DNA of 64,000 nucleotides from Sporomusa acidovorans. Lineage in GTDB: Bacteria; Bacillota; Negativicutes; Sporomusales; Sporomusaceae. The stretch is taken from positions 1-64,000 of the forward strand of contig NZ_FNAM01000014.1 of NCBI RefSeq assembly GCF_900101845.1, in the 5' to 3' direction. The notes beneath the pieces are model-generated. The model was not told the origin of the DNA and searched no databases. It saw only the letters and a program-made list of their open reading frames with translations. The position numbers and the translations under genes are program-made. Within the stretch, counting starts at the first letter, position 1. Each line of letters begins with the position of its first letter. Shown here piece by piece: positions 34,752 through 53,307 of the stretch.

Positions 34752-35804
34752 TTGAAGAATGTAATGAGTCGCATTTTGTTAGTAATTTTAGCTTTAGGTA
34801 TTCTTCTAGTCAGTGCTGCTTGCAGCAATTCACAACCTTCAAGTAAGACAGAACAAAAAAACTCAGGTAAAAAGCCGGTAATTGCCATATCTAATTCTTT
34901 CTATGGCAATACCTGGAGACATCAAATGGTTGATGCTTATGAGGCTGCCGCCAAACAGGCTAAAGCGGAAGGAGTAATTGCCGATTATATTATCCTTAAT
35001 GGCGATGGCACACAACAAACGCAAATGACACAAATGAATGACCTGATTTTAAAGCATGTTGATGTTATTGCCATAGATTCTTTTTCTCCCACAGCCATGA
35101 ATGGCGTGATTGAGAAGGCGGAAAAGGCTGGCATTAAGGTACTGTCGTTTGACTCCATTGCAACTGAGAAAGATAATTATAAATTGAATTTCGATTTTCC
35201 TAAATTTGGTCGTGACATGGCAAACTATGCGGTTAAGGAATTTAACGGGAAGGCTAATGTCTTGATTGTCCGTGGTGTTGCAGGCTCGGCCCCTGATAAT
35301 GACATGTATGAAGGCACTATGGAAGTATTAAAAAACCAGCCGGATATGAAAGTGGTTGGAACCGTTTACGGTCAGTGCACAACTTCTGTAACAAATTCTC
35401 AGATCAGCAGTATTCTGCCGAGTTTGCCCAATGTTGATGTTGTAATTTTACAAAGCGGCGGCGATGATTATGGTGCTGTCCAGGCTTTCCAAACAGCAGG
35501 AAAACCTGTCCCCAAAATTCTCGCTAATGGATCTGCCGAGTTTGTAAAATGGTGGTATGAAGAAAATAAGAAAAACGGATATACAACCTGGGGAGAATGT
35601 TCTACTCCTGGAATTGGCAGTGTGGCTGTTTGGCTTTCTATTGCATTAGCTAATGGCGAAAATGTTCCTAAAGATATGATTATGCCTTTTGCTGAAATTT
35701 CACAGCAAGATCTGCAAAAATATCAGAGCATGCAGCCGGGGACAATTGTAAGTCCTGATTATTCGAAGGAATGGGTTTATCAAAATCTCTTAAATAAAAA
35801 ATAA
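34752..35804 (+). CDS. Sugar-type ABC transporter substrate-binding lipoprotein
   Basis: 350 residues. A signal peptide with lipobox-like VSAAC (Cys near residue 24) is followed by a low-complexity Ser/Gln/Lys linker and then a Peripla_BP_4 (ribose-binding-type) domain from KPVIAISNSFYGNTWRHQM. Typical strand-loop features LIVRGVAGSAPDN and VVILQSGGDDYG are present. It would be anchored to the outer face of the inner membrane and deliver ligand to the permease genes downstream. Start TTG 34752 with AGGAGGAA 7 nt upstream. Ligand unknown; the neighbouring acid-sugar genes suggest a sugar or sugar acid. Confidence 0.9.
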   Translation: MKNVMSRILLVILALGILLVSAACSNSQPSSKTEQKNSGKKPVIAISNSFYGNTWRHQMVDAYEAAAKQAKAEGVIADYIILNGDGTQQTQMTQMNDLILKHVDVIAIDSFSPTAMNGVIEKAEKAGIKVLSFDSIATEKDNYKLNFDFPKFGRDMANYAVKEFNGKANVLIVRGVAGSAPDNDMYEGTMEVLKNQPDMKVVGTVYGQCTTSVTNSQISSILPSLPNVDVVILQSGGDDYGAVQAFQTAGKPVPKILANGSAEFVKWWYEENKKNGYTTWGECSTPGIGSVAVWLSIALANGENVPKDMIMPFAEISQQDLQKYQSMQPGTIVSPDYSKEWVYQNLLNKK

Positions 35805-35884
35805 GCAGTAAAGTTGGATAAAGGGGTTCGTACAATTGCTTTTTAAGATCTCCTTTGGCTAACTTTATAAGTGCGGTTTGATGA

Positions 35885-35918
35885 TGAACCTTGAGCAAAC
35901 ACTCAAGGTTCATTTTTC
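35885..35918 (+). terminator. Attenuating terminator between binding-protein and ATPase genes
   Basis: TGAACCTTGAG pairs perfectly with CTCAAGGTTCA around CAAACA and runs into TTTTTC. A partial terminator here would give more binding protein than membrane complex, as in many ABC operons. Confidence 0.8.
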
Positions 35919-35991
35919 AAAAGATACAAGGCTGTAAGTAACTAACGTTGGAATAAGAATACATTTTAAAATAGCATAAAGGAGGCCTTTC

Positions 35992-38493
35992 ATGATCAGC
36001 GAGGAATCTAAGACCCAAACAAATACAAAAGAAGTGTTGTTGGAGGCGTCCCACATACTGAAAACTTATGGCGCTACCAAAGCAGTTGACGAAATGTTTA
36101 TATCATTAAACAAGGGCGAAGTATTGGGGTTGGTTGGAGCCAATGGTGCGGGAAAAAGTACGATGATGCGTATTATTGCCGGCGTAACAAAACCCGATTC
36201 AGGCTCACTTAATTTTTTAGGAAAGGAATTAAATAGCGCCCAATATTCGACTGCGGTTGCACGCCAACTTGGTATTCGCGTGGTGTATCAGGAGCTTTCG
36301 CTTTGCACGAACCTTAAAGTTTATGAGAATTTTTTTATTGAACAGCATCAGATTTTTAAGGGAAGCAACTGGCGAAAACGGGCAAACGAGACGGCGCGTG
36401 AATTTTTGGAAAAAGTTTTTCCGGGAAATAACATTGATACGACAGAAACCGTATCAAACCTTTCTATCGCTCAGCGACAAATGATTGAAATTGCAAGAGC
36501 AGCCTGTGATCCGGAATTAAAGTTGCTTATTTTGGATGAGCCTACTTCTTCGTTAGGCGCTGAACAGACCGAGCAATTGATACAGTTTGTTCTGAAGGCA
36601 AGGGAGACAGGCATGGCTTTTATCTTTATTTCTCATAGGCTGCAGGAGGTTTTAAAAATATGTAACAATGTTACCGTAATGAATAATGGCCGGCTAAGCT
36701 GTACCAATCAATCCTGTGATATAAATGAGGCAATTTTGATTCAACAGATGGGCGGCGTATCACAGGCGGAGAAAAATCAAACAAGCAAAACGGAAAACAG
36801 GAATGCAACTCGTGAGCAGGCAAATCTCAAAATCGAGATAAGCAACTTAGATAATGATCAGGTTCATAACATCAGCACGAAAATGTATGCCGGTGAAGTG
36901 ATCGGGGTTACTGGTTTAGAAGGCAGCGGCCAAAAGGCGCTTTTGAATATTCTTTATCAGGCTAGCCGGCAGCCGGGAAAAAACAAGTGTATTTCCATTC
37001 ATGACACAGTGGCGTATGTTTCCGGTGACCGGTCTAAAGAAGGTGTCTTCCCATTATGGTCTATTTTGGAAAATATGAGTATAACAGCGCTGACGAAGTT
37101 TAATAAAGACAGGCTTGTTGATAAAAAACAGGAGGAGCAATGGGGAAAAACATGGTTTGAGCGCCTCAAGATCAAAGCAGCGGACATACATGTCCCCTTA
37201 GTCAGTTTGAGCGGCGGCAACCAGCAAAAAGCATTAATTGCCAGGGCATTTTTGTCTGATGCCAATATTATACTTCTCGATGATCCAAGCCGCGGGGTAG
37301 ATGTGGAAACCAAACGGCAGCTTGCCCAGCTTTATCGTGAAGCTGCGGACCAGGGAAAGTTAATCATCTGGCATAGCACAGAAGAAGAAGAATTGACAGA
37401 ATGCGATAGAGTGCTGGTAATGCATGATGGCTATTTAGTTAAAGAATTAGCTAACAATGAAATCTCTAAGGCTAATATTATTGATGCGTCGTTTATCACT
37501 GCGGATGATTATCGTAAAAATAAAGAAAAAAACAATAGCAAAGACCAGCATAAGATTGCCAATTTTTTCAGCAGGCAACGGACGGCGATGCCTTGCATAG
37601 CCTTGGCGCTTATTGTTGCGGTTATCAGCTATATTAATCCACACGCTGTTACGGCTTTTGGCATCAATCTGCTCATTGGGTCGGCGATACCTTTAATTTT
37701 GGCATCCATAAGCCAAATGTTCATTATTGCTGCCAGCGATATAGACTTGGGAATGGGGGCATTTTTGGGATTTGCAAATGTTATCAGTGCCACGATACTG
37801 GTTTCTAATCCATTCTTAGGAATGCTTATTTTGTTTTTGGGGATAGCAGGGTATGCGGTTTTAGGAGCCATCATTCATATAAGAAAAATTCCGGCTATTG
37901 TTGTAACATTGGGCTCATCCTTTATTTGGCTTGGTATTGCTTTAAGTGTTATGGAAAAGCCCGGTGGTAGTGCGCCGGCTGCATTGGTCAGCTTTTTTAA
38001 CATGGAATTTCCGCTTATACCGGAATCAATTGTACTAACATTAGTCATTGCCGTTGTCGCTTATTTGATTATTATACGTTCTAAATATGGAACGGTTCTC
38101 AGAGGCTTTGGCAATAATCCCAAAGCTATAGCCAGAAGCGGTTGGTCGACAATGAAAGCAAAAGTAGCGTTATATACGCTGGCGGGTTTCTTTGGTGTCC
38201 TGGCAGGCATTTCATTGACAGGAATAACAACGGCCGCTGACGCGAATGCCGCATCCTCTTATACGATGCTCAGTATCGCAGCTGTGATCATGGGTGGAGG
38301 TGAACTTGTCGGCGGAATTGTCGAACCGTTTGGCGTGGTGTTTGGTGCGGTAACTCTTTCGCTTATCGGTGCTTTGGTCGGCTTTGTTCATATTGGCAGT
38401 AACTATCAGCCGGCAGTTCAAGGATGTCTCATGTTTATCATTCTGGCAATCCGGGTCGCTATTAGGAGGAAGAATAATGAAAATTGCTATTAA
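35992..38493 (+). CDS. Fused ABC ATPase-permease (RbsA-RbsC type)
   Basis: 833 residues joining three modules. ATPase domain 1 (about 15-255) has Walker A GANGAGKST and signature LSIAQRQ. ATPase domain 2 (about 280-520) has a degenerate Walker A GLEGSGQKA and signature LSGGNQQKA, as usual for RbsA second domains. A RbsC-type permease with about 8-10 membrane segments follows (about 535-833), including AASDIDLGMGAFLGFANV. RbsA proteins are normally about 500 residues and the permease is separate, so this is an uncommon fusion. The following gene encodes a second, stand-alone permease and overlaps it by 17 bp, so the importer is probably a heterodimer of a fused and a free permease. SD AAAGGAGG. 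Confidence 0.9.
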   Translation: MISEESKTQTNTKEVLLEASHILKTYGATKAVDEMFISLNKGEVLGLVGANGAGKSTMMRIIAGVTKPDSGSLNFLGKELNSAQYSTAVARQLGIRVVYQELSLCTNLKVYENFFIEQHQIFKGSNWRKRANETAREFLEKVFPGNNIDTTETVSNLSIAQRQMIEIARAACDPELKLLILDEPTSSLGAEQTEQLIQFVLKARETGMAFIFISHRLQEVLKICNNVTVMNNGRLSCTNQSCDINEAILIQQMGGVSQAEKNQTSKTENRNATREQANLKIEISNLDNDQVHNISTKMYAGEVIGVTGLEGSGQKALLNILYQASRQPGKNKCISIHDTVAYVSGDRSKEGVFPLWSILENMSITALTKFNKDRLVDKKQEEQWGKTWFERLKIKAADIHVPLVSLSGGNQQKALIARAFLSDANIILLDDPSRGVDVETKRQLAQLYREAADQGKLIIWHSTEEEELTECDRVLVMHDGYLVKELANNEISKANIIDASFITADDYRKNKEKNNSKDQHKIANFFSRQRTAMPCIALALIVAVISYINPHAVTAFGINLLIGSAIPLILASISQMFIIAASDIDLGMGAFLGFANVISATILVSNPFLGMLILFLGIAGYAVLGAIIHIRKIPAIVVTLGSSFIWLGIALSVMEKPGGSAPAALVSFFNMEFPLIPESIVLTLVIAVVAYLIIIRSKYGTVLRGFGNNPKAIARSGWSTMKAKVALYTLAGFFGVLAGISLTGITTAADANAASSYTMLSIAAVIMGGGELVGGIVEPFGVVFGAVTLSLIGALVGFVHIGSNYQPAVQGCLMFIILAIRVAIRRKNNENCY

Positions 38494-39430
38494 TAATATA
38501 GGCAAAGATAAACCCTGGATTTGGGCCTGCCTTGGCAGTCTGATCTGCTGGCTTATTACAGGTCTGGTTTTGTCAAAACTGGATTTTCAGTCTCTTTTAG
38601 TCAATGCGGCCCTGGCATCGCTGCTGGCTATTGTATCTTTTGGGCAGATGTACGCTATCACCTCAGGCGATGGCGGAATTGATTTGTCAATTCCTTATGT
38701 TATTACTTTGTCGGCTTTTATGTCTTTTGGAATTATCCAAGGGGTAGAAAGTAATTTAATACTGGCTATGGCAATTATAGCGGCTGTCGGGCTGCTGATT
38801 GGTTTTTTAAATGCTATTTCCATCATAATTTTCAAGATTCCCCCTATTATTGCTACAATGGCTATTGGTTTTATCGTCAATTCGGCAGTACTGGTTTATT
38901 CATCCAGCTATTCTTCGCATAAAACCAGTGTCGTTCTGACAACCATTGCCAATGGGAGATTCTTAGGGATTCCAATTATTATAGTATTTGCGCTTGTTTT
39001 ACTCTTGATGATTGTGTTTAGCTTTGAAAAGATGTCTTATGGACGGGCACTCATTGCAGTAGGACAAAACAGGCTTGCCGCTTTTCTTGCCGGGATCAAC
39101 GTAAATAAAACGATTATGATTGCCTATATGATAAGCGGCTTGCTGGCAGCAGCAGGGGGGGCCTTAATTGGCGCCAGGATAGACGGAGCGTTCCTGGAAA
39201 TGGGACAGGCTTATATGCTGCAGTCGGTTGGGGCGGTAGTCATTGGCGGAACATTAGTTGCAGGCGGCAAAGCGTCGCCTGTCGGAGCAGCTTTTGGCGC
39301 ACTGATGCTGATGTTAATGGTAACGCTTATGGTTATAAGCGGTTTGCCAATTGGGGTTCAATATATTGTGGAAGGAATTATCTTGATTTTAGTGCTGATC
39401 ATTGATAATCCGCATGCGGATAGTGAATGA
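38477..39430 (+). CDS. Second RbsC-type ABC permease
   Basis: About 318 residues, hydrophobic throughout, with the family block ITSGDGGIDLSIPYVITLSA near residue 63 and GALIGARIDGAF plus AVVIGGTLVAGGKASPVGAAFGAL near the end. ATG 38477 is chosen because AGGAGGAAG is 6 nt upstream, inside the 3' end of the fused gene. An earlier in-frame ATG would overlap that gene by 125 bp. It most likely pairs with the permease domain of the fused protein to form the membrane channel. Confidence 0.9.
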   Translation: MKIAINNIGKDKPWIWACLGSLICWLITGLVLSKLDFQSLLVNAALASLLAIVSFGQMYAITSGDGGIDLSIPYVITLSAFMSFGIIQGVESNLILAMAIIAAVGLLIGFLNAISIIIFKIPPIIATMAIGFIVNSAVLVYSSSYSSHKTSVVLTTIANGRFLGIPIIIVFALVLLLMIVFSFEKMSYGRALIAVGQNRLAAFLAGINVNKTIMIAYMISGLLAAAGGALIGARIDGAFLEMGQAYMLQSVGAVVIGGTLVAGGKASPVGAAFGALMLMLMVTLMVISGLPIGVQYIVEGIILILVLIIDNPHADSE

Positions 39431-39676: not shown

Positions 39677-41341
39677 ATGAGAAGTCATATAACCACCAGG
39701 GGATTAGAACGGGCAACACACCGCGCGTTGTACTATTCTATGGGTTTTCTGCCGGAAGATTTGGATAAGCCGCTCATTGCTGTGGTAAATACGCAGAATG
39801 AGACGATGCCCGGACATGTTCATTTGGACAGCATTGCCAAGGCCGTCAAGGAAGGTATTATTGCCGCCGGCGGTACGCCGATTGAATTCCCGACCATTGG
39901 TCTTTGTGATGGGATTGCGCAAGGCAACTATGGCATGCACTACCCGCTGGCCAGCCGGGAATTAATTTGTGACTCGGTAGAATGTATGGTCAACGGTCAT
40001 CAATATGACGCTATGGTGCTTATCACCAACTGTGATAAAATAACTCCAGGTTTACTAATGTCGGCTGTTCGCCTCAACATTCCGGCCATTATGATTAGCG
40101 GCGGCCCGATGGCGACCGGTTGCGTTGACGGCCAGGAAATCGGTTACACCGATTTGATGGCCGCTCAGGGCGATGTGGCCAGAGGAATTATTACCCGTGA
40201 AGAATTATCAAGAAGAGAAAGAGACGCGCTGCCTGGCTGCGGTGCCTGCAACTTGCTGGGAACAGCCAATACGATGAACTTCCTTACCGAAGCGCTTGGC
40301 ATGTGCCTGCCGGGAGCAACCTGTATGGCCGGGACTGGCAGAAGACTGGCTTTGGCCAAACAAACCGGTATGAAGATTATGGAGCTTTTTAATAAATCAA
40401 TTTTACCGCGCCAGATTGTCACCAAAGAAGCTATTGAAAATACAATTACGGTAGACCTGGCTATTGGCGGATCCACGAATACCATTCTCCATTTGACCGC
40501 ATTAGCCAAAACAGCCGGTATTGATTTTGATGTGAATTGCTTTGCCGAACTAGCCCAAAAAGTTCCTCATCTTGTAAAAATAAAACCTGCCAATAATGGC
40601 CACTATCCTGCCGATGTGCATAATGCCGGCGGTATAACGGCATTGATGGGGCAATTATGTAAGAATGGCCTGTTGCACAAAGATGCAATGACAGTAACCG
40701 GTAAAACCGTTGCTGAAAATGTTAGTGAAGCTAAGGTGATCAATAACACGGTCATCAGACCCATGGACAATCCCTATTCGGCCAAAGGCGGCTTGCAGTT
40801 GCTGTACGGCAACCTGGCACCTCATGGTTCAGTCTGCAAGAGCGCGGCTGTTGTTCCGGAAATGTATCACCATAAAGGACCTGCCAGGATCTTTAATCAG
40901 GAAGAACCTGCAGTGGCGGCTATTTACGGCGGACAGATTAAACCGGGTGATGTCGTTGTCGTAAGATACGAAGGACCAAAAGGCGGCCCTGGTATGCGGG
41001 AAATGCTTACCGCTACGGCTGCCATCGTTGGCATGGGCTTATCCAAGGAAGTTGCCCTGATAACTGACGGTCGTTTCTCCGGTGCTACAGCCGGTGCTGC
41101 GGTGGGACATGTTTCGCCGGAAGCAGCCGAAGGCGGCCCGATTGCCTTAATTGAAGAGGGCGATATGATTGAAATCGATATTCCTAAAGGTACTGTTCAT
41201 CTGCATGTAAGCGATGAAGAACTGGCCCGCCGTAAAGCAGCCTGGAAACCGATGAATCCAGATCATGTTATTAAGGGCAGTTATCTTGATCGCTATTCAA
41301 AAATGGTTTCATCAGCAATGGATGGCGCCGTATTTAAATAA
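39677..41341 (+). CDS. IlvD/Edd-family acid-sugar dehydratase 1
   Basis: 554 residues. Fe-S ligand Cys are visible in ITNCDKITPG and PGCGACNLLGTANTM; the C-terminal EGPKGGPGMREML and TDGRFSGATAGAAVGHVSPEA are the family substrate and Mg blocks. The N-terminal block reads MPGHVHL, not PCNxHL, as in E. coli IlvD, so an oxygen-labile [4Fe-4S] enzyme is likely. Family members turn 2,3-dihydroxy acids into 2-keto-3-deoxy acids. There is no ilvC, ilvB or leu gene nearby, and the next two genes encode PanB homologues 27 bp downstream, so a sugar acid is more likely than dihydroxyisovalerate. SD GAGGAGG at 39660. Confidence 0.88.
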   Translation: MRSHITTRGLERATHRALYYSMGFLPEDLDKPLIAVVNTQNETMPGHVHLDSIAKAVKEGIIAAGGTPIEFPTIGLCDGIAQGNYGMHYPLASRELICDSVECMVNGHQYDAMVLITNCDKITPGLLMSAVRLNIPAIMISGGPMATGCVDGQEIGYTDLMAAQGDVARGIITREELSRRERDALPGCGACNLLGTANTMNFLTEALGMCLPGATCMAGTGRRLALAKQTGMKIMELFNKSILPRQIVTKEAIENTITVDLAIGGSTNTILHLTALAKTAGIDFDVNCFAELAQKVPHLVKIKPANNGHYPADVHNAGGITALMGQLCKNGLLHKDAMTVTGKTVAENVSEAKVINNTVIRPMDNPYSAKGGLQLLYGNLAPHGSVCKSAAVVPEMYHHKGPARIFNQEEPAVAAIYGGQIKPGDVVVVRYEGPKGGPGMREMLTATAAIVGMGLSKEVALITDGRFSGATAGAAVGHVSPEAAEGGPIALIEEGDMIEIDIPKGTVHLHVSDEELARRKAAWKPMNPDHVIKGSYLDRYSKMVSSAMDGAVFK

Positions 41342-41368
41342 TAACGATAATTATAGGGGGCTATAAAA

Positions 41369-42202
41369 ATGGCTAAAACAAAAATTACAATTCCTCAGAT
41401 TCTGGAGACCAAGCAAAACGGGAAGAAGTTTAAAATGATTACCGTATATGATTACCCGATGGCCGGTATTGTTGACCGTTCCGCCGCCGAGCTTATCTTA
41501 GTGGGCGATTCCCTGGGAATGGTTATCCAGGGCCATGACAGCACTGTGCCGGTAAATTTTGAAGATATTCTGTATCATGTAAAACTTGTCCGTCGCGGCG
41601 CACCCAATACTTTTATTGTTGGTGATATGCCGTTCTTATCCTACCAGGTTAACCGTGACGAAGCCATTCGCCATGCCGGTATCCTGTTAAAAGCCGGTGC
41701 CGATTGTGTTAAAATGGAAGGCGGCATTAAAATCGCCGAAACAGTAAAGGCAGTTGCAGACGCCGGTATACCGGTTATGGGGCACATCGGCTTAACGCCG
41801 CAAACCGCTGCCATGATGGGTGGCTTTAAAGTTCAGGGTAAAAGCGCGGAGGCTGCTGAAAAGCTTATGCAGGACGCCCAGGCCATTGATAACGCCGGTG
41901 TATTTGCCATGGTGCTTGAATGCATGCCTTCCAGCCTGTGCAAATTAATTACGGAAAAAATTCATGCTGCGACCATCAGTGTTGGCGGCGGTCCTGACTG
42001 CAACGGACACAACCTCAACGCCTATGACCTTGTTGGCATCTTTGACAAATTTGTACCCAAATTCGTTAAACAGTATGCACAAATGGGACAGCAAATGGTC
42101 GACGTGTTTGACACCTGGTGCAAAGAAATTGACGATGGCACTTTCCCCGAGGAAAAACATTGCTTCACTATGAAGGATGAGGATTTGAAACGCCTTTACT
42201 AA
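41369..42202 (+). CDS. PanB-family hydroxymethyltransferase/aldolase, divergent copy 1
   Basis: 277 residues of the ketopantoate hydroxymethyltransferase fold (PEP mutase-like TIM barrel). Catalytic positions are kept: VGDSLGM, VGDMPFLSY, CVKMEGG, MGHIGLTPQ and the Glu in VLECMPSS. The region that reads IGIGAGxxxxGQxLV in PanB is here SVGGGPDCNGHNLNAYD, so the active-site rim differs from copies 2 and 3. PanB normally adds a hydroxymethyl group from methylene-THF to ketoisovalerate. Position directly after a dehydratase and before a second PanB copy suggests reverse cleavage of a 2-keto-3-deoxy acid, possibly as a mixed complex with copy 2 (inference). Confidence 0.85.
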   Translation: MAKTKITIPQILETKQNGKKFKMITVYDYPMAGIVDRSAAELILVGDSLGMVIQGHDSTVPVNFEDILYHVKLVRRGAPNTFIVGDMPFLSYQVNRDEAIRHAGILLKAGADCVKMEGGIKIAETVKAVADAGIPVMGHIGLTPQTAAMMGGFKVQGKSAEAAEKLMQDAQAIDNAGVFAMVLECMPSSLCKLITEKIHAATISVGGGPDCNGHNLNAYDLVGIFDKFVPKFVKQYAQMGQQMVDVFDTWCKEIDDGTFPEEKHCFTMKDEDLKRLY

Positions 42203-42234
42203 GTTCTTAGCATATATGAGGAGATGGATGGATA

Positions 42235-43086
42235 ATGGCCAAAAAAACAATTAATGATTTCAAACAAATGGTGGAAAAAGGCGAGAAAATTGTATGGTTA
42301 ACTGCCTACGACTATCTCACTGCCAAAATGCAAGAAAAAGCCGGGGTGGATATGATCCTGGTTGGCGATTCTCTTGGCATGGTAAGCCTGGGCTATGATA
42401 CTACTTTCCCGGTAACCATGGATGATATGGTCCGCCATTGCCAGGCTGTCCGCCGTGGCGCGCCTAATACCTTTATTGTCGGCGATATGCCGTATATGTC
42501 CTATCAGAAGTCTGATGAAGAAGCTATAGCCAATGCCGGCCGTTTGGTAAAAGAAGCCGGTGTTGACAGTATTAAACTTGAGGGCGGCGGTGAGCTGATC
42601 GCCCGCCGGGTTAAAGCCATTCAACAAGCCGGTATCTTAGTATTCGGTCATATCGGTTTAACGCCGCAGTTCATGGGCCAAATCGGCGGTTACCGGGCGC
42701 AGGGCCGCAGCGCTGCGGCAGCGATGAAGCTTGTTGAGGAGGCAAAAGCTATTGAAGAAGCCGGCGCTTTCGCTATCCTGGTAGAAGGCGTACCCGCTGC
42801 TGTCGGTAAGGCTATTACCGAAAAAGCAGGTATTCCCATTTTAGGTATCGGGGCCGGTTCTTATACGCACGGACAACTGCTGATTTATGCGGATATGGTT
42901 GGCATGTACGATAACTTTACGCCGAAATTCGTCAAGAAATATGCAAGTGTCGGCGAAGTCCTGACAAAGGCTTTTAAAGATTATACGGAAGAAGTCAGAA
43001 AGGGTCAATTCCCTGACGATAATGAGCATACCTACAAGATGAGCGAAGCAGAAGTAAAAGAGTTTCTTGCTTTGTTGGGTAAATGA
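42235..43086 (+). CDS. panB: PanB-family hydroxymethyltransferase/aldolase, copy 2
   Basis: 283 residues with every PanB active-site residue: Asp45 and Ser46 (VGDSLGM), Asp84 (VGDMPY), Lys114 and Glu116 (IKLEGG), His138 (GHIGLTPQ) and Glu183 (LVEGVP). These correspond to Asp45, Asp84, Lys112, Glu114, His136 and Glu181 of E. coli. It is roughly 90% identical by eye to copy 3 at 60468-61319 and clearly less similar to copy 1, 33 bp upstream. No panC or panD is near. The SD is GAGGAGATGG before ATG 42235. Besides pantothenate synthesis, the context supports transfer of the terminal CH2OH of a 4-hydroxy-2-keto acid to THF (hypothesis). Confidence 0.87.
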   Translation: MAKKTINDFKQMVEKGEKIVWLTAYDYLTAKMQEKAGVDMILVGDSLGMVSLGYDTTFPVTMDDMVRHCQAVRRGAPNTFIVGDMPYMSYQKSDEEAIANAGRLVKEAGVDSIKLEGGGELIARRVKAIQQAGILVFGHIGLTPQFMGQIGGYRAQGRSAAAAMKLVEEAKAIEEAGAFAILVEGVPAAVGKAITEKAGIPILGIGAGSYTHGQLLIYADMVGMYDNFTPKFVKKYASVGEVLTKAFKDYTEEVRKGQFPDDNEHTYKMSEAEVKEFLALLGK

Positions 43087-43092
43087 GACTTG

Positions 43093-43208
43093 ATTCAGAT
43101 GGGGGGTTAACCCCATCTGAATCTTAGTCGAATTATCCAGGGACTTAGCCGTTCTTTACTCCCGTCTGCAGAGGACGGGAGTATTAGAACGGGTTAGTCA
43201 TCGGATAA
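43093..43208 (+). repeat. Palindromic repeat family B, copy 1
   Basis: Hairpin 1 at 43093-43122 pairs ATTCAGATGGGG with CCCCATCTGAAT around GGTTAA. A long second hairpin runs from TTATCC (43133) to GGATAA (43208): GACTTAGCCGTTCT pairs with AGAACGGGTTAGTC (mismatched), inner ACTCCCGTC with GGACGGGAGT. It lies 7 bp after the panB-family stop codon. Confidence 0.8.
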
Positions 43209-43221
43209 ATAAGCAAGGGCT

Positions 43222-43258
43222 AAAAAAAGGCTGCGGGGAACTTCCTCCAGCCTTTTTT
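43222..43258 (+). terminator. Terminator after the dehydratase-PanB-PanB operon
   Basis: AAAAAGGCTG pairs with CAGCCTTTTT across a 13-nt loop, followed by TGC. It lies between repeat B copy 1 and repeat A copy 2 in a 432-bp gap. Confidence 0.8.
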
Positions 43259-43275
43259 GCACATTGCATAGGAAA

Positions 43276-43374
43276 TCCAATAAAGATTTCTTTCTGGCAG
43301 GGCGTTAGTAACGCTCCACCGCTGGCGCTTGACTTCCGCTTTTACTAACACCCTGCCTATAAATCTTTATTGGA
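43276..43374. repeat. Palindromic repeat family A, copy 2 (short variant)
   Basis: The outer arms TCCAATAAAGATTT and AAATCTTTATTGGA pair perfectly. The inner stem GGCAGGGCGTTAGT pairs with ACTAACACCCTGCC with one G-U. These stems differ from copies 1 and 4, yet the central loop (AACGCTCCACCGCTGGCG, then CTTGACTTCCGCTTTT) differs at only two positions. The remaining sequence up to 43518 shows no other feature. Confidence 0.85.
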
Positions 43375-43518
43375 CATGATACAGTTAAAATTAATTACTA
43401 TTTTCACGATACAGGTAAACCCTATATTCTGGAGGTTTTTGCGAGATGCAAAGAGAAGTACTCTTTTTTTGGGGAATTACTTTATACGAACAATGACCAA
43501 ATAAAGGGGGAAAAAATT

Positions 43519-44799
43519 CTGAGCATAGCAGGTAAGTCAATAGTCGTGATTGCCGATGATTTGACTGGCGCGAACGATACCGGGTTACAGTTTGCGCGCA
43601 ATGGATTATCAACAGAAGTTATTTTAGAGGGGAACTCCATAACAAGTTCTACCGGCAAAGTGGTTGTGGTTGCCGACACGAACAGCCGGGCGCTGCCTGC
43701 CGAAGAGGCTTACCGCAAGGTAAACCAAGTGGCAAAACAGGCCCAGGCTGCCGGTTTTTCTCACTTTTATAAAAAGATTGATTCTACTTTGCGCGGAAAC
43801 ATCGGTGTTGAATTAAACGCCATTCTCGACTTGGAAATTCATGACTTTGCTTTTGTAATGCCCGCATTTCCTAAGAATGGGCGCACAACAGTGGGAGGAC
43901 ATCATCTTCTGCAGGGAGTTCCGCTGGCAGCCACGGAGATTGCTTGCGACCCCAAGTGTCCTGTTCATGAAACTATACTGCCGGCGTTGCTGGCAGCACA
44001 GTCCGGTGGCAAGGTAGGGCATATTGGCATCAAGGAAATTTGTCAGGGGGAAGAGGCGATCATTGCGGCTATCCGGGGCTATTTGGCTGAAGGCTGCCGG
44101 ATTGTGAGCTGCGATGCCTGGCAGGAAGACCATTTTCCCATAGCTATTCAGGCTGTGTCTAAAATATCGGAACGCGTTCTCTGGGTTGGATCGGCCGGGC
44201 TGGCTGAGTATATACCGCAACTGTTACTGGGCTTAAGTAAAAAAGCGGAGAAGAAAAAGCCGGTGCTGGTTATTGCCGGTAGTATCAGCTCAGTAACTAG
44301 AGAACAAGTCAAACGGCTTTTGGACAAAAATTATGTGTTGGTCGAAGTAATCGTTAGTAGTTTTCCCTGGCAGAAAGCTCATTTTGATTCCTGTTTACGG
44401 CATGCGCTTATTCATTTAGCCAACGGGAAAAATGTTGTGCTGGCTTCAGGCTACCAGGAAGATGCATTGGAGCAGGCTAAAAGTATTGGTGCAAAATATG
44501 GTATGCCACTGGCAAAGATCAGCGAAAGTGTTTCTGAAGTCCTTGGTTGGCTGGGTTCTGCCATATTGGCAAAGCAGGAAATATCCTGTATGGTTTTGAC
44601 CGGCGGGGACACGGCTGCTGCCGTTTGTCAGGCACTTGGCGTGACAGGCATCCGTATTCTGGAGGAACTGGCGCCGGCCATGCCGCTTGGTGAAATGGAA
44701 ACAGCAACAGGAAAAACAATACATGTTCTCACAAAAGCAGGTGCATTCGGTACTCCCGATGTTTTAGTCAAGGCACTTGAGCAAATGCAAAGGAGATAA
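43519..44799 (+). CDS. DUF1537 four-carbon acid sugar kinase 1
   Basis: About 426 residues. The N-terminal domain begins SIVVIADDLTGANDTGLQFA, with substrate-binding KKIDSTLRGN near residue 85. The C-terminal ATP domain has VLTGGDTAAAVCQALG and TKAGAFGTPDVL. DUF1537 enzymes phosphorylate four-carbon acid sugars such as D-threonate or D-erythronate at O4. The start is uncertain: no ATG fits; GTG 43546 would cut off the first strand, whereas CTG 43519 (or ATT 43516) lies 8 nt after GGGGG. PdxA2 follows 5 bp downstream, the classical partner. Confidence 0.88.
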   Translation: MSIAGKSIVVIADDLTGANDTGLQFARNGLSTEVILEGNSITSSTGKVVVVADTNSRALPAEEAYRKVNQVAKQAQAAGFSHFYKKIDSTLRGNIGVELNAILDLEIHDFAFVMPAFPKNGRTTVGGHHLLQGVPLAATEIACDPKCPVHETILPALLAAQSGGKVGHIGIKEICQGEEAIIAAIRGYLAEGCRIVSCDAWQEDHFPIAIQAVSKISERVLWVGSAGLAEYIPQLLLGLSKKAEKKKPVLVIAGSISSVTREQVKRLLDKNYVLVEVIVSSFPWQKAHFDSCLRHALIHLANGKNVVLASGYQEDALEQAKSIGAKYGMPLAKISESVSEVLGWLGSAILAKQEISCMVLTGGDTAAAVCQALGVTGIRILEELAPAMPLGEMETATGKTIHVLTKAGAFGTPDVLVKALEQMQRR

Positions 44800-44804
44800 A
44801 CGCA

Positions 44805-45806
44805 ATGGAACAACGACCAATTTTGGCTATTACGATGGGGGATGCCGCAGGCTGTGGCCCTGAAGTCATTGTGAAGGCTTTAAATGATGAAAAAGTGTAT
44901 CAATTATGCTGTCCGCTGGTGTTTGGCGATGCGGCAAGAATCAAGCTGGCTGCCGGCATTGTTGGTAGCCAGCTGGTGATACAGCGGGTTGTCGGTGCCC
45001 GGGAAGGCGATTATCAATATGGAAAAATTGATGTTCTGGATTTTGCCAATATTCCGGCAGATCTTCCTTTTGGCCAGGTGGATGCCAGAGCCGGTCACGC
45101 CGCTTACGAATATTTAGCGGGTGCGATTGAACAGGCCATGCAAAAGACGGTAGCCGCCGTTGTTACGGCGCCGCTTAACAAAGAAGCTCTCCATAAAGGC
45201 GGGCATAATTTTCCGGGGCATACTGAGATTCTGGCCCAGCTCAGCCATACCGACGATTATGCCATGATGCTGGCCGGCGATGCCCTGCGGGTCATTCATG
45301 TAACAACGCATGTTTCGATGCGGGAAGCGGCCGACCTTATTACCCGGGAACGGGTGCTTAAAATTATTTCTTTGGCCGATCGTACGTTGCGTCTGCTGGG
45401 AATTGAAACCCCAAGAATCGCTGTTGCCGGCTTTAATGCGCATGCAGGCGAAAATGGCTTGTTTGGGCGGGAAGAAATTGAGGAAATTAACCCGGCAATA
45501 GCAGCGGCAAAGGCACAGGGGATACAGGTTACCGGCCCGGTTCCGCCTGATACCGTGTTTTTCCGGGCTGCACGCCGTAAGGAATTCGATATTGTCGTTG
45601 TTATGTATCACGACCAAGGGCATATTCCTATTAAACTTTTAGGTTTTGAGGATGGCATCAATGTTACGGTCGGTCTGCCGTTTCTCCGCACGTCGGTTGA
45701 CCACGGAACAGCGTTTGATATTGCCGGCAAGGGATTAGCCGATAGCGGCAGCATGACTGCCGCCATTGAGTTTGCCGCGCATGTGGCCCGCGGTGCGCAT
45801 CAGTAG
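44805..45806 (+). CDS. pdxA2: PdxA2-type 4-phospho-acid-sugar dehydrogenase
   Basis: 333 residues of the PdxA family. Metal-binding His are in FPGHTEILAQL, TTHVSMREAADL and MYHDQGHIPIKLLGFEDGIN; the last block is typical of PdxA2 rather than vitamin B6 PdxA. It oxidises 4-phospho-threonate or 4-phospho-erythronate at C3 with NAD+, with decarboxylation to dihydroxyacetone phosphate. It starts 5 bp after the kinase gene with SD AAAGGAGA and is followed 36 bp later by a LarA homologue. The three genes look like one tetronate module. Confidence 0.9.
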   Translation: MEQRPILAITMGDAAGCGPEVIVKALNDEKVYQLCCPLVFGDAARIKLAAGIVGSQLVIQRVVGAREGDYQYGKIDVLDFANIPADLPFGQVDARAGHAAYEYLAGAIEQAMQKTVAAVVTAPLNKEALHKGGHNFPGHTEILAQLSHTDDYAMMLAGDALRVIHVTTHVSMREAADLITRERVLKIISLADRTLRLLGIETPRIAVAGFNAHAGENGLFGREEIEEINPAIAAAKAQGIQVTGPVPPDTVFFRAARRKEFDIVVVMYHDQGHIPIKLLGFEDGINVTVGLPFLRTSVDHGTAFDIAGKGLADSGSMTAAIEFAAHVARGAHQ

Positions 45807-45842
45807 ATGATAGTTAAATAAATGTGATAGAGGTGTAGGAAG

Positions 45843-47132
45843 ATGAGAAAATTTACGTTGAAGTATGGCAAGGAAGAGATGAGTTTTTCTATCCCCAGTG
45901 AACAGTTGCTCCACGAAATCGTTGGTAAAGAGTATCCGCCGATTAGCGATATTCCGGGGGCTGTGCGCCAGGCCTTGGCTAAGCCCATTGATGCACCGCC
46001 GCTTGCTGAACTGGTAAGGCCTGGTGAAACCGTGGCAATCGCCGTTAGCGATATTACCCGCGCCTGGCAGCAGATGCCGCTGGTATTGCCGGAAGTGATT
46101 GCCACTTTGAACAAAGCCGGTGTACCGGACAGCAATATTACCATTATCATCGCCGTAGGCGGACACCGTAAAAATACCGAAGAAGAGTTTGTTCAACTGT
46201 GCGGCAAAGAAATTTATGATCGAATTAAAATCGTAAATCATGATGCCTTTGATGCCGATAATATGGTGTATTTAGGGAAAACGAGTACAGGCACCGAAGT
46301 TTCCATTAATAAAATCGCGGCCGATGCCGATCGCCTAATTCTGACAGGCGGTATTATTTATCACTATATGGCTGGATTTGGCGGCGGCCGCAAGAGCATT
46401 ATTCCCGGCATCAGTTCCATAAAAACCATTCGCCAGAACCATTTATGGGGACTTGGCCGTGAGGTAGGCGCCGGTTCTAATCCGAATGCTGCCTCCAGGA
46501 AAACACTGGGGAATGAATTGCATGAAGATATGATGGAAATTGCCGGTTTTGTTAAACCAGACTTTATTGTCAATATGGTGCCGACGCCTGAGGGAAAATT
46601 TGGCGGCGTATTCGCCGGCAACTGGGTTTCTGCCTGGAAGGAAGGCTGCAAATTAGTGGATCAGCTTTACGGTGTGGAAATTGACAGCCTTGCCGATATT
46701 GTCATTACCACAGCAGGCGGCTTCCCAAAGGATATTAATTTATATCAAACCGGCAAAACTATGGATAATGCCTATTATGCCGTAAAAAAAGGCGGTGTGG
46801 TCGTACTGTTAAGCGAGTGCGCCGATATTTATGAGCCGGAGGAATTCTCCCGCTGGTTTAAATATGACGATAAGGTGTCAATGGAAAAAGCATTGCGTGC
46901 AGACTTTGGGATTCCCGGTTGGGTAGCCCTAAAAGAAGTGGAATGCAGTAATCATGCCACCTATATCATGATAACCCGTGCCGAAAATGCCGAGTTTGTC
47001 CGCAAAACCGGCATGATTCCTACAACCAGCATTGAAGAAGCACTCAAAATCGCCAGAGAAAAATGCGGTGTGGCGAAACCCACCTATACCGTGATGCCGC
47101 AGGGGGCCAATACACTGCCTATTTTGCGGTAA
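45843..47132 (+). CDS. larA: LarA-family nickel-pincer racemase/epimerase
   Basis: 429 residues. The catalytic His is in AVGGHRKNTEEEF and the second in GIIYHYMAGFGGGRKSIIPG, which also carries the Lys that binds the nickel-pincer nucleotide. The nickel-ligand His is in IRQNHLWG, and NLYQTGKTMDNA supplies Gln and Lys substrate contacts. LarA interconverts lactate enantiomers, and the wider family epimerises other 2-hydroxy acids. Directly after kinase and PdxA2 it more likely inverts C2 of a tetronate so the kinase can use it. Lactate remains possible because an Etf-linked GlcD dehydrogenase lies 16 kb on. The cofactor needs LarB, LarC and LarE, none of which is in the window. Confidence 0.87.
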   Translation: MRKFTLKYGKEEMSFSIPSEQLLHEIVGKEYPPISDIPGAVRQALAKPIDAPPLAELVRPGETVAIAVSDITRAWQQMPLVLPEVIATLNKAGVPDSNITIIIAVGGHRKNTEEEFVQLCGKEIYDRIKIVNHDAFDADNMVYLGKTSTGTEVSINKIAADADRLILTGGIIYHYMAGFGGGRKSIIPGISSIKTIRQNHLWGLGREVGAGSNPNAASRKTLGNELHEDMMEIAGFVKPDFIVNMVPTPEGKFGGVFAGNWVSAWKEGCKLVDQLYGVEIDSLADIVITTAGGFPKDINLYQTGKTMDNAYYAVKKGGVVVLLSECADIYEPEEFSRWFKYDDKVSMEKALRADFGIPGWVALKEVECSNHATYIMITRAENAEFVRKTGMIPTTSIEEALKIAREKCGVAKPTYTVMPQGANTLPILR

Positions 47133-47148: not shown

Positions 47149-47232
47149 TCCGCTAAGGCTTTTCTGTTTGCCGCATGCCGTTATAGAAACGGTGGTAAGC
47201 GGCAATCCGTTAAGTTTTTAGCGGATTTTTTT
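47149..47232 (+). terminator. Terminator after larA
   Basis: TCCGCTAA (47149-47156) pairs with TTAGCGGA (47218-47225), followed by seven T. A nested hairpin GCCGC/GCGGC lies inside. Downstream to 47615 (about 380 bp) I see no gene. One frame from about 47281 reads like a decayed coding remnant (IELSEIENAEAVLAKAAKRD) before stops, which I do not recognise. A 12-bp palindrome, CCCTGGCCAGGG, lies at 47532-47543. Confidence 0.75.
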
Positions 47233-47615: not shown

Positions 47616-48935
47616 ATGGCAAGTACAACAGTGAATGTGGAAAAAACAATCAGCAAGCTGCGCTGGCATTTATTGCCGTATTTGATGTTGCTGTATATCA
47701 TGGCGATGATTGACAGAGTAAACATCGGTTTTGCTGCCTTGCAAATGAATCAGGAATTGGGTATAACCCCAAGTATGTTTGGCTTTATCGCTGGTATCTT
47801 CTTTATTGCTTATTTCTTTTTTGAAGTTCCTAGTAATGTTATTATGCACAGAGTCGGAGCCCGTAAATGGATTACCCGAATTCTTATCAGCTGGGGTTTG
47901 GTTACTGTATTTACAGGCTTTGTTCACACTTCAACTCAGTTCGCCATTCTTCGCGTTTTGCTTGGTGTTGCTGAAGCTGGCTTTTATCCCTGTATCATCT
48001 TGTATTTAACCTTCTGGTTCCCTGGCAAGTATTTTGCCAGCGCCGTTTCCATTTTTATGTGCGGTATGGCGTTGGCCAATATTATAACCGGCCCGATTTC
48101 GACCTGGATCATGGATAATGTTATGTGGTTGGACTTAGCCGGCTGGCGCTGGTTGTTCATCATTGAAGGAGCACCGGCGGTACTGCTTGGGTTTATAACC
48201 TATTTCACGATGATTGACCGTCCGGATCAGGCAAAATTCCTGGACAAAGATGAGAAAGAATGGCTGCTTGCCGAATTGCAAAAAGAGCATGAAGCAAAAC
48301 TGGCGCAAGTGCCTGCCAACAAATGGGAAGTATTCAAAATGGGCAAAGTTTGGCACCTGTCCTTCTGCTACTTGTGCTATGTTATCGCCTTATACGGCTT
48401 GGGATTGTGGATGCCGCAGATTATTAAAGGCCTGTCAAAGGCGCTGAGTATCACTAACATTGGCCTTATTTCCACTATTCCTTATTTCTTTGCGGTAGTT
48501 GCGATGGTGCTTTGCGCCCGCCATTCGGACAATACCGGAGAACGCCGGTACCATGGGTCTCTGCCGATCGCGCTATCCTTTTTCGGCTTGATCGGTTTGA
48601 CTATGACCAATGATTTGTATATATCTATGGCGCTTATTTGCTTAAGCCAGATGGGTATCTACTGCTTTGTCGGCACTTTCTGGGTTTTCCCGAATATGTA
48701 TCTGACAGAGGCTACGGCAGCAGTTGGTATTGCTATCATTAACTCGACGGCTAACCTGGGAGGCTTTATTGGGCCTTATGTCGTAGGCTTCCTCAAAGAT
48801 ATGAGCGGCGGTTCCACGACCTTGAGCATGTACTTCCTGGCATCTTTTGCCATTATGGGAACGCTATCTGTACTTGCTCTTGGCAAAAAAAGCGAACCCG
48901 GAGTTACTGATGCATCAACCCCGGTAGCGAAGTAG
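47616..48935 (+). CDS. MFS transporter, ACS family (organic/sugar-acid carrier)
   Basis: A 439-residue, 12-segment carrier. It starts with a cytoplasmic helix (VEKTISKLRWHLLPYLMLLYI), then MIDRVNIGFAALQMN and the loop VGARKWITRILISWG, all typical of the tartrate/phthalate branch of the anion:cation symporters. ATG 47616 has SD AAAGGAGG. It stands between the tetronate module and the two-component genes with terminators on both sides, so it is probably its own transcript. Substrate likely a tetronate or related acid (inference). Confidence 0.87.
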   Translation: MASTTVNVEKTISKLRWHLLPYLMLLYIMAMIDRVNIGFAALQMNQELGITPSMFGFIAGIFFIAYFFFEVPSNVIMHRVGARKWITRILISWGLVTVFTGFVHTSTQFAILRVLLGVAEAGFYPCIILYLTFWFPGKYFASAVSIFMCGMALANIITGPISTWIMDNVMWLDLAGWRWLFIIEGAPAVLLGFITYFTMIDRPDQAKFLDKDEKEWLLAELQKEHEAKLAQVPANKWEVFKMGKVWHLSFCYLCYVIALYGLGLWMPQIIKGLSKALSITNIGLISTIPYFFAVVAMVLCARHSDNTGERRYHGSLPIALSFFGLIGLTMTNDLYISMALICLSQMGIYCFVGTFWVFPNMYLTEATAAVGIAIINSTANLGGFIGPYVVGFLKDMSGGSTTLSMYFLASFAIMGTLSVLALGKKSEPGVTDASTPVAK

Positions 48936-52413: not shown

Positions 52414-53307
52414 ATGTTTAAAGGAATACTATCACCGATTATTACCGTTTTTGATGCCCAAGGCAAACTTGATTTTAAGGGAAATGAGCGGCATATTAAC
52501 CGGCTGATCGACAATGGAATTAATGGAATTCTCTTTCTGGGCAGTATCGGTGAATTTTTTGCACTTTCGCTGGCAGAGAAAAAAGAGTTTATTACTTTTG
52601 CCGTAAAAACAGTCAATAAGCGGGTGCCTGTACTTATTGGCACCGGTGGCACAGTGCAGACAGAGGTTATTGAGTTGACCCGCTTTGCCGAGCAGGCGGG
52701 CGCTGATGCGGCGGTGATTATTTCACCTTACTATTTCAAACTTGAGGCGGACACCATCTTCCGTTATTATGCCGGCATCGCCAGAAGCACGTCTTTACCG
52801 ATTATGCTCTACAATTTTCCTGACAGGACAGCCTATGACCTTGCTCCGGAGCTGGTTGTTCGTTTAGTTAAAGAATTTGATCATATTGTGGCAATTAAAG
52901 ATACAGTGGATACAATCAGTCATACCAGAAAAATGATTCAGACGGTTAAAAGCGTACGGCCGGATTTCAGCGTTTTATCAGGCTATGACGAATATTTGAT
53001 TCCCAATTTAACGGCAGGCGGGGATGGCGTTTTAAGCGGGTTGACCAATATTGTGCCGCAGGTCTTTGCCGCTTTGATGAAGGCTTACGCCGCCAAAGAT
53101 TTGGATAAGGTTTGGGCAGCCCAGGCGCAAATTTCCTTACTTATGAATCTTTATGATGTAACCCAGCCTTTTATTGCCGGGATTAAGGCTGCTGTTGCCG
53201 TGATGGGGGAACCGATCGTCCCGACGGTAAAAGAACCGGCTGTGGAAGTGACACCTGCGCATCTACAGACAATCCAAAACTTACTGAAGAAGGCAGGTGT
53301 TCTGTAG
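52414..53307 (+). CDS. DapA/NAL-superfamily aldolase 2 (2-keto-3-deoxy acid aldolase)
   Basis: 297 residues. Carboxylate-binding loop GSIGEFFAL, Tyr in IMLYNFPDRTAYD and Schiff-base Lys in IVAIKDTVDTISH are in place. It is similar in length to the galactarate-operon aldolase but clearly a different branch. It follows the AraC regulator by 44 bp (SD GAGGTGATC) and precedes dehydratase 2, which makes 2-keto-3-deoxy acids. Cleavage of such an acid to pyruvate and an aldehyde is therefore the best guess. DHDPS for lysine synthesis is unlikely in this setting. Confidence 0.83.
   Translation: MFKGILSPIITVFDAQGKLDFKGNERHINRLIDNGINGILFLGSIGEFFALSLAEKKEFITFAVKTVNKRVPVLIGTGGTVQTEVIELTRFAEQAGADAAVIISPYYFKLEADTIFRYYAGIARSTSLPIMLYNFPDRTAYDLAPELVVRLVKEFDHIVAIKDTVDTISHTRKMIQTVKSVRPDFSVLSGYDEYLIPNLTAGGDGVLSGLTNIVPQVFAALMKAYAAKDLDKVWAAQAQISLLMNLYDVTQPFIAGIKAAVAVMGEPIVPTVKEPAVEVTPAHLQTIQNLLKKAGVL

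Follow-up and report, generated by a model that had tools for sequence, protein, structure and literature searches.

A candidate retro-hydroxymethyltransferase route for sugar acids encoded by a dehydratase-PanB-PanB gene cluster of Sporomusa acidovorans

The IlvD_1-PanB_A-PanB_B locus

The first 64,000 nucleotides of contig NZ_FNAM01000014.1 from Sporomusa acidovorans (assembly GCF_900101845.1) were analysed, and this whole stretch is termed the window. It contains a gene for an IlvD/Edd-type dehydratase, IlvD_1, closely followed by genes for two homologues of PanB, PanB_A and PanB_B, and these three genes are the subject of this report. The window belongs to contig C80, and the genome assembly comprises 126 contigs and 6.0 Mb; C, G and L numbers below denote contigs, genomes and loci, respectively. 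The principal genes are as follows.

39677-41341, + strand: IlvD_1, IlvD/Edd dehydratase, 554 amino acids (aa); PF00920 and PF24877, NCBIfam
41369-42202, + strand: PanB_A, PanB homologue, 277 aa; TIGR00222 above cut-off; pocket V202, N212, N214, Y216
42235-43086, + strand: PanB_B, PanB homologue, 283 aa; TIGR00222 above cut-off; pocket I202, L212, I214, A216
43546-44799, + strand: DUF1537 acid-sugar kinase; PF07005/PF17042; the best NCBIfam model is D-threonate kinase, below its cut-off
44805-45806, + strand: PdxA-family dehydrogenase; PF04166; passes TIGR00557 pdxA, with the D-threonate 4-phosphate dehydrogenase model below cut-off
45843-47132, + strand: LarA homologue, a nickel-pincer 2-hydroxyacid racemase/epimerase of the LarAH10 family; PF09861; NCBIfam LarAH10 at 638 bits (cut-off 540)
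58681-60420, + strand: IlvD_3, third IlvD/Edd dehydratase, grouping with YagF
60468-61319, + strand: PanB_C, third PanB, behind IlvD_3 and 90% identical to PanB_B

An initial annotation, made from the sequence alone, had described the dehydratase gene followed by two panB genes. That layout and the first spacer of 27 base pairs (bp) stand, and the spacer between PanB_A and PanB_B is 32 bp, not 33. PanB_B is separated from the DUF1537 gene by 459 bp. The tetronate-type neighbours DUF1537, PdxA and LarA named in the same annotation are borne out by Pfam and NCBIfam, and the PdxA protein is probably PdxA2-like, judging by its position beside DUF1537. Added here are the third PanB gene (60468-61319), further dehydratase genes at 58681-60420 and 53532-55211, and three PanBs elsewhere in the genome. 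IlvD_1, PanB_A and PanB_B have counterparts of 90-94% protein identity in Sporomusa silvacetica (L044), Sporomusa sp. KB1 (L033) and S. ovata (L155).

The host genome has six PanB homologues above the family cut-off and one weak match below it. PanB_A, PanB_B and PanB_C are in the window, PanB_D is on C100, PanB_E on C81 and PanB_F on C107. Scores with PF02548 (cut-off 28.7 bits) are 365.9 bits for PanB_B and 333.9 bits for PanB_A. D45, S46, D84, K112, E114, H136 and E181 (numbering of E. coli PanB, PDB 1m3u), which we take to be the catalytic and metal-binding residues, are kept in all six, and the earlier statement that both PanBs behind IlvD_1 have intact catalytic sites is therefore correct.

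The pocket differs between the copies. Positions 202, 212 and 214 are described as pocket-lining, and were mutated in E. coli PanB for a wider scope, in passages of PMC7610986 and PMC7611260. They read I/I/V in E. coli PanB, V/N/N in PanB_A, I/L/I in PanB_B, PanB_C, PanB_D and PanB_E, and I/V/V in PanB_F. The hydrophobic pocket that accommodates the gem-dimethyl group of ketoisovalerate is lost in PanB_A, and in PanB_B it is altered yet still hydrophobic. All proteins of the PanB_A clade share N214 and Y216, and their position 212 is N or C (VNNY, CNNY, TCNY). The PanB classes used for neighbour counts below are defined by the letters at 212, 214 and 216, so that N214 and Y216 belong to the PanB_A class by definition; independently of these letters, the 19-row PanB_A clade of the tree contains no other type.

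PanB_D and PanB_E are 87-92% identical to PanB_B and PanB_C. PanB_D (L009 83-5813, on C100) lies with genes for an iron-dependent alcohol dehydrogenase, a 2-hydroxyacid dehydrogenase and a DHDPS-like protein, and PanB_E (L010 8323-10995, on C81) with genes for a zinc alcohol dehydrogenase and an Asp/Glu racemase family protein. A PanB from an Oscillospiraceae bin (L039 449-1273) displays Gln at the Lys112 position and keeps the other residues checked.

Phylogeny and gene neighbours of the PanB types

A quick maximum-likelihood tree of 113 PanBs (LG+G4, SH-aLRT support only, midpoint root) was made. Seven partial PanBs, L240 (the same gene as L161), the archaeal L041 and L043 and identical proteins are omitted from it, and 17 of the 42 loci of a separate survey of pan, one-carbon (C1), IlvD and LarA neighbours are included (14 once identical ones are dropped). 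The PanB_A type forms a single clade of 19 rows (SH-aLRT 99) that is nested among PanE-linked PanBs (34 rows, 99). The PanB_B type lies inside a 58-row clade (97) with a core of 47 rows (99). A further clade (18 rows plus two others, 99) unites the PanBs linked to panBCD, and both the PanB_A and the PanB_B clade lie outside it. The tree has long branches, those of E. coli PanB and PanB_F among them, and some of these meet. Thus the two copies stand apart from pantothenate PanB, in separate clades, and the grouping with it that the initial annotation would have taken as evidence against its proposal is not seen.

IlvDs from 18 chosen loci were also compared. IlvD_1 scores 709.9 bits with TIGR00110 (cut-off 618.15; the host IlvD on C54 scores 786.5), and its type forms a clade of 13 rows (support 99) that is sister to E. 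coli IlvD plus the C54 IlvD. However, the IlvD_1 motif LGTANTM is of the sugar-acid type, with G where dihydroxyacid dehydratase (DHAD) has F or Y. The residue before TAN[ST]M is G in 13 of the 13 IlvD_1-type proteins given, in Edd, in YagF (there GTAGT) and in the host's other four IlvDs; it is F or Y in E. coli IlvD, the C54 IlvD and the DHADs of PDB entries 6nte and 6ovt. This residue may mark the type of substrate. IlvD_3 groups with YagF, a D-xylonate dehydratase, and with a host copy on C102.

The dehydratase and PanB_A recur together. In 11 of the 12 loci compared, one of which is the window, 28-84 bp separate the IlvD_1 match from the PanB_A match, measured between matched stretches with the stop codon excluded; the exception is Desulfotruncus (L026), with 5.6 kb. 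Protein distance matrices of full-length IlvD_1 and PanB_A at 12 loci are correlated with an r of 0.98, a value reached in none of 5000 permutations and to which shared ancestry contributes. The pairing exceeds chance.

PanB neighbourhoods were assembled from 45 loci found in a similarity scan with PanB_C, of which L018-L050 were annotated and L051-L062 (33-37% identical) left out, and from further regions that we selected from genome searches. The 42-locus survey scored PanC, PanD, PanG, PanE, Fhs, FolD, MetF, IlvD_1, IlvD_3 and LarA only, in flanks of at most 1.5 kb, some of them cut by contig ends. Within 1.5 kb of the 19 PanB_A-class genes are IlvD (13), LarA (6), TRAP transporter (3) and C1-folate genes (1, at L158), and no panC or panD. 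The PanB_B class (51 genes, 50 of them distinct since L025 and L189 are one gene, and including six ILIH, ILIG or LLIH proteins) has IlvD at 13, LarA at 9, TRAP at 1, a C1-folate gene at 8 and again no panC or panD; its IlvD counts overlap with those of adjoining PanB_A genes. The remaining class, IVV and others (32 genes), has PanE at 14, a C1-folate gene at 4 and panC or panD at 3. As canonical controls, the 30 top-scoring PanB loci of the class (L063-L092) were used: panC, panD or panG/DUF2520 adjoins 25 of them, and C1-folate, IlvD_1 or IlvD_3, LarA and PanE genes adjoin none. Extended to 8 kb, the search for panC and panD was still negative for all 19 PanB_A-class and all 51 PanB_B-class genes.

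PanB_B-class loci with Fhs, FolD or MetF are L022, L023, L024, L032, L037, L048, L158 and L188; the Fhs of L023 is cut by a contig end, and the FolD match of L188 is a weak one (38.5 bits) to an open reading frame (ORF) of 128 aa with the catalytic domain only. The gene orders are TRAP-GlcD-GlcF-PanB-Fhs-FolD-FocA (L022), PanB-Fhs (L023 and L024), PanB-FolD (L032), PanB-FolD-Fhs (L037), PanB_A-PanB_B-FolD-Fhs (L158) and DUF1537-PdxA-IlvD-(partial PanB)-LarA-PanB-MetF (L048). In L230 the order is IlvD-DUF1537-PdxA-LarA-PanB. Pfam confirms the Fhs, FolD, FocA, MetF and GlcF-type proteins in L022, L024, L032, L037, L048 and L158.

PanB_A and PanB_C also tend to occur in the same genomes, which were picked by similarity and not at random. 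A full-length match at least 59% identical to PanB_C is present in 14 of the 18 genomes with a pocket-checked PanB_A; this bar was chosen after the list had been viewed, with G348 at 59 and the best match of G367 at 65 but with a VATA pocket. Of the others, G079, G091 and G131 have only fragments at contig ends, and G405 has no PanB_C-like match. Among the other 12 genomes searched, G107, G430 and G054 have a PanB_C-like match; in G054 a PanB_A was assigned by identity only.

Several loci show further arrangements. At L167-L170 an IVV-pocket PanB is beside PanE and FolD, with Fhs and TRAP in addition at L167-L169; oxidation by PanE and cleavage by PanB may serve there to break down pantoate or other 2,4-dihydroxy acids. 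A further PanB type with an ILIH pocket is found at L180 9294-10130, L181 9050-9871 and L182 9618-10439 (G034, G083 and G107, relatives within the genus). According to Pfam, the genes ahead of the L182 copy encode a corrinoid protein that binds B12, a methyltransferase that binds pterin, an octopine-dehydrogenase-like protein, an MTTB methyltransferase and, as a weak match, an Asp/Glu racemase; this PanB is within a methyl-transfer operon. The Pfam scan covered L182; L180 and L181 have ORFs of similar size. Tandem PanBs (IVVH then ILIA) followed by a prismane/hybrid-cluster protein are present at L029 9065-12653 and L030 1142-4730 (Pfam on L029).

The pantothenate genes of the host are elsewhere. 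Its sole panC is on C122, as DUF2520-panC-panD behind a pan-motif RNA (L014 555-2889), where the DUF2520 gene is presumably panG. C54 holds its sole ilvC match, and the canonical-looking, best-scoring IlvD is about 22 kb away from it. The window thus has no panC, panD or ilvC, as had been noted at first; for panC and panD, the host's own PanC and PanD gave no match in it at E 1e-12. The window and L009-L011, where the other host PanBs are encoded, yielded no pan-motif RNA. A separate pan set elsewhere, raised by the initial annotation, is therefore present as panC-panD and ilvC/IlvD but lacks a panB of the panBCD clade. G111, G123 and G143, of the same genus, have panG-panB-panC-panD plus PanB_A and PanB_B. 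In genomes such as these, with both kinds available for comparison, PanB_A and PanB_B are therefore not the enzyme of pantothenate synthesis. A biosynthetic pantothenate operon was rejected for the window on the basis of the tree, the neighbours and the location of the pan-motif RNA.

In the host, ketopantoate should come from one of its PanBs, for which PanE-linked PanB_F is the likeliest candidate. G034 and G083 (same genus, two contigs each) likewise have panC and panD and no panBCD-type panB by pocket class and neighbours. The idea that all PanE-linked PanBs serve pantoate catabolism is weakened, since the host (G000), G034 and G083 keep panC and panD without a panBCD-type panB; the PanE-linked PanB may supply ketopantoate in these three, and G143 (KB1) has both PanB types. 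Many 3-substituted 4-hydroxy-2-oxo acids are substrates of the ketopantoate reductase of E. coli (in part of PMC10127515). Three genomes of the genus have panC and panD without an adjacent panB (L014 of the host, L254 and L255).

The host has acetyl-CoA synthase (CdhC/AcsB) genes, in keeping with the acetogen considered at first, and it presumably grows as one. CdhC/AcsB is present in 14 of 22 genomes, namely the host and 21 carriers of related PanBs. Among 300 genomes of the class, 10 of the 14 with at least three PF02548 matches (contig-end fragments counted) have a CdhC match, against 8 of the 286 others (Fisher 2.8e-11, uncorrected for kinship); in this count the matches of G040 and G233 are weak and that of G233 is below the family cut-off. 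One CdhC/AcsB match, at G000:C23:37037-37495, lies in a reading frame that contains one TGA.

A proposed reverse PanB pathway and its alternatives

IlvD/Edd enzymes convert 2,3-dihydroxy acids into 2-oxo-3-deoxy acids, and dehydration of a 2,3,4-trihydroxy acid gives a 4-hydroxy-2-oxo acid, which belongs to the side of the PanB reaction that undergoes cleavage. The operon probably encodes a natural catabolic route in which PanB works in reverse, by retro-hydroxymethyl transfer to tetrahydrofolate (THF). IlvD_1 would dehydrate a 2,3,4-hydroxylated sugar acid to a 4-hydroxy-2-oxo acid, and PanB_A and PanB_B would pass its hydroxymethyl carbon or carbons to THF; the products would be 5,10-methylene-THF and a smaller 2-oxo acid, in the end pyruvate. 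In an acetogen-type host the C1 unit would enter the methyl branch of the Wood-Ljungdahl pathway, whereas relatives that lack acetyl-CoA synthase could release it as formate via FolD, Fhs and FocA. The reaction direction, the use of THF, the substrates and the pyruvate end product are all predicted from genomes. Cleavage that forms methylene-THF is the simplest reading because Fhs, FolD, MetF and FocA adjoin PanB in relatives. The idea of a reverse PanB had been put forward in the initial annotation for threonate or erythronate; its core is strengthened by the AcsB of the host, the separate clades and the C1-folate neighbours, and the proposed substrate fares less well, as a tetronate fits PanB_C and a branched acid fits PanB_A plus PanB_B better.

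Threonate or erythronate would suit PanB_C, which is behind a dehydratase of the YagF, linear sugar acid branch. IlvD_3 and PanB_C would then form a parallel version with a single PanB, in which a tetronate is converted to 4-hydroxy-2-oxobutanoate and this to pyruvate and methylene-THF. Formation of 2-oxo-4-hydroxybutyrate from D-threonate is reported for two D-arabinonate dehydratases, which does not imply that these are IlvD/Edd members, and L-threonate dehydratases and a broad-range IlvD of Sulfolobus solfataricus are also mentioned (in part of PMC10079672). When E. coli PanB was used in synthesis, retro-aldolysis was avoided by inactivating the enzyme with EDTA (in part of PMC10127515).

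For PanB_A and PanB_B a 3-branched acid such as apionate is favoured over a tetronate, because IlvD_1 is DHAD-like, PanB_A has Asn at the methyl positions and the PanBs are in tandem. Apionate (3-hydroxymethyl-tetronate) is dihydroxyisovalerate with both methyls hydroxylated. IlvD_1 would turn it into 3-hydroxymethyl-4-hydroxy-2-oxobutanoate; PanB_A, with Asn at the positions that usually hold the methyls, would pass the first CH2OH to THF, and PanB_B would take the second from 4-hydroxy-2-oxobutanoate, so that two of five carbons enter C1 metabolism. This double demethylolation of apionate, yielding pyruvate and two methylene-THF, is put forward tentatively, as one possibility that is itself rather doubtful. 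No apiose genes turned up, and none were searched for, so that apionate remains a guess, and the substrate may instead be a tetronate. Three loci (L162, L163 and L166) with IlvD_1, PanB_A and a TRAP transporter have no adjoining PanB_B, which weighs against a double cleavage. Characterised LarAH10-type racemases, moreover, prefer linear over branched side chains (in part of PMC11770544), which weighs against a branched acid. There, the substrates of Megasphaera LarAH10 are gluconate/mannonate, 2,4-dihydroxybutyrate and, with very weak activity, 2,3-dihydroxyisovalerate; the window LarA may therefore epimerise the substrate at C2.

A number of observations weigh against the reverse pathway or limit it. 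The pocket letters are not a simple substrate code, which was rejected because of an IVVH PanB between an IlvD_3-like dehydratase and LarA (L224), and PanBs with the same canonical pocket adjoin LarA in L227, L229 and L231. No scored catabolic neighbour is found within 3.5 kb of 23 of the 51 PanB_B-class genes (28 have one), although some contigs end early. The DUF1537-PdxA pair next door suggests a tetronate kinase route, so that a second tetronate route would be redundant. Eight of the 22 carriers examined have no CdhC/AcsB, and there is no CdhC match in four of the 14 genomes with at least three PF02548 matches (G007, G087, G091 and G131). The Wood-Ljungdahl link is therefore not strict; PanB_A-PanB_B-FolD-Fhs is present in G087 although no CdhC match is, and acetyl-CoA need not be the destination of the C1 unit. 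The assembly has a contamination of 7.3%, yet PanB_A, PanB_B and PanB_C share one contig. Finally, as the host has no panB of the panBCD clade, at least one divergent PanB should make ketopantoate.

This last point bears on a forward use of the operon, whereby PanB would transfer the hydroxymethyl from methylene-THF onto the 2-oxo acid that the dehydratase yields, to make pantothenate or another hydroxymethylated product or to act as a C1 sink. NCBIfam (TIGR00222 and TIGR00110) names the window proteins panB and ilvD above cut-off, Fhs and FolD can provide methylene-THF and as neighbours suit this direction equally, and the host has no panB adjoining panC. However, ilvC is near the canonical-looking IlvD on C54 and not in the window, and S. 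ovata, S. silvacetica and KB1 retain panG-panB-panC-panD alongside PanB_A and PanB_B. The pan-motif RNA precedes panG-panC-panD, the PanB_A pocket is Asn/Asn, and the neighbours are transporters, a racemase and sugar-acid kinases. A forward use is thus very unlikely. Cleavage could instead proceed without THF, with PanB_A and PanB_B as class II aldolases that release free formaldehyde or split longer 2-keto-3-deoxy acids into pyruvate and glycolaldehyde or another aldehyde. In vitro, E. coli PanB acts as an aldolase with formaldehyde independently of THF, and D-erythrose is a good substrate of its V214G variant (in part of PMC7610986). V214 is one of the positions altered in PanB_A. The adjacency of Fhs, FolD and MetF at PanB_B-class loci argues for THF, however, and free formaldehyde is toxic, so that we regard this alternative as unlikely.

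The tandem PanBs may also act in the retro direction as hetero-oligomer partners, or as isozymes for two stereo-forms of one tetronate, an explanation that overlaps with the reverse pathway proposed here. PanB_A and PanB_B adjoin in the window, L027, L033, L044, L153-L155 and L158, and the nearby LarA could interconvert C2 epimers. The same loci that have PanB_A with IlvD_1 and TRAP but no adjoining PanB_B (L162, L163 and L166) speak against it, as do the pockets, which differ chemically and not merely in shape. On balance it seems somewhat improbable.

The reverse pathway resembles several known systems. PanB (EC 2.1.2.11, PF02548) is of the same family and length, with the same catalytic residues and chemistry at C3 of a 2-oxo acid; the window copies differ in their separate clades, in catabolic neighbours that replace panC and panD, in the change of I212/V214 to Asn/Asn in PanB_A and in the predicted reverse direction. 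In the case of IlvD (EC 4.2.1.9), IlvD_1 is sister to E. coli IlvD plus the host's C54 copy and passes TIGR00110, but it has the G of the Edd/YagF type, no ilv neighbours and PanB_A as a recurrent partner. Serine hydroxymethyltransferase passes a substrate carbon to THF and would share the metabolic role of a retro-PanB, although it is a pyridoxal phosphate enzyme with an amino acid substrate, of a family unrelated to PanB. DUF1537-PdxA2 forms a kinase route to triose phosphate, and the same gene pair lies side by side 3′ of the window PanBs; that route ends in dihydroxyacetone phosphate, whereas the PanB route would release C1 as methylene-THF. A kinase route of this type for L-threonate is described in part of PMC12540250. 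Synthetic pathways of the homoserine-cycle type (in part of PMC8879981) tie the same C4 oxo acid, 4-hydroxy-2-oxobutanoate, to C1, but run in the opposite direction with formaldehyde and the promiscuous aldolase RhmA, and not with PanB and THF.

In open-licence literature, searched through titles and abstract openings with subscription papers and preprints outside its scope, no natural PanB retro pathway was found among the matches listed, in line with the first impression that none had been described. Nor was a dehydratase route of apionate catabolism named among the matches listed there. What appears new is the arrangement of known enzyme families, with a predicted reverse direction. In a wider view, PanB may have given rise to a natural family of retro-hydroxymethyltransferases that feed the C1 pools of anaerobes. 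If these clades run in reverse, the naming of PanB by family models misleads for genes recurrent in Sporomusa and other anaerobes, and sugar acids of plants and soil would have an entry into acetogen metabolism at the level of methylene-THF, with no free formaldehyde. C1 biotechnology now uses engineered PanB variants and promiscuous aldolases, and would gain in these enzymes parts that evolved naturally. Tandem PanBs with different predicted substrates pose a question that is testable with few purified proteins.

Other features of the window

The genes described above are accompanied by the following features.

34752-39430, + strand: sugar-type ABC transporter (binding protein, fused ATPase/permease, permease), just upstream of IlvD_1
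47204-47227, + strand: terminator-like hairpin and T-run 3′ of larA; the scanned stretch has 18 such sites, with 11.5 expected
47616-48935, + strand: MFS transporter, also at Sporomusa loci L033, L044 and L155
49164-52370, + strand: histidine kinase (PocR-type sensor and cupin domains) and AraC-type response regulator
52414-53307, + strand: DHDPS/KDG-aldolase-family protein
53532-55211, + strand: IlvD_2, second IlvD/Edd dehydratase
57427-58671, + strand: second DUF1537 kinase

The hairpin at 47204 is possibly the 3′ end of a unit spanning 39677-47132. Whether the ABC transporter belongs to the IlvD_1-PanB unit is uncertain; it was not seen upstream of IlvD_1 in L033, L044 and L153-L155. Its sugar-binding protein (at 34752) matched 53 distinct PDB sequences, the best of them a putative ABC transporter protein, and an amidohydrolase at 33886 gave weak matches only. 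LarA is also near the dehydratase-PanB genes at Sporomusa loci L033, L044 and L153-L155. Pairs of a kinase and an AraC-type regulator are found near IlvD_1/PanB_A at L026, L033, L044, L153-L155, L162, L163, L165 and L166.

IlvD_2 in Sporomusa L018 1098-4711 (also L019 and L020) is beside genes for acetaldehyde dehydrogenase and a DmpG-type 4-hydroxy-2-oxovalerate aldolase (Pfam on L018), and a parallel route for 5-deoxypentonates is possible in this neighbourhood. Elsewhere in the window are a glycyl radical enzyme with its activating enzyme (11340-14721, named by eye) and, at 445-687, a T-box leader RNA upstream of a gene named by eye as CstA-like.

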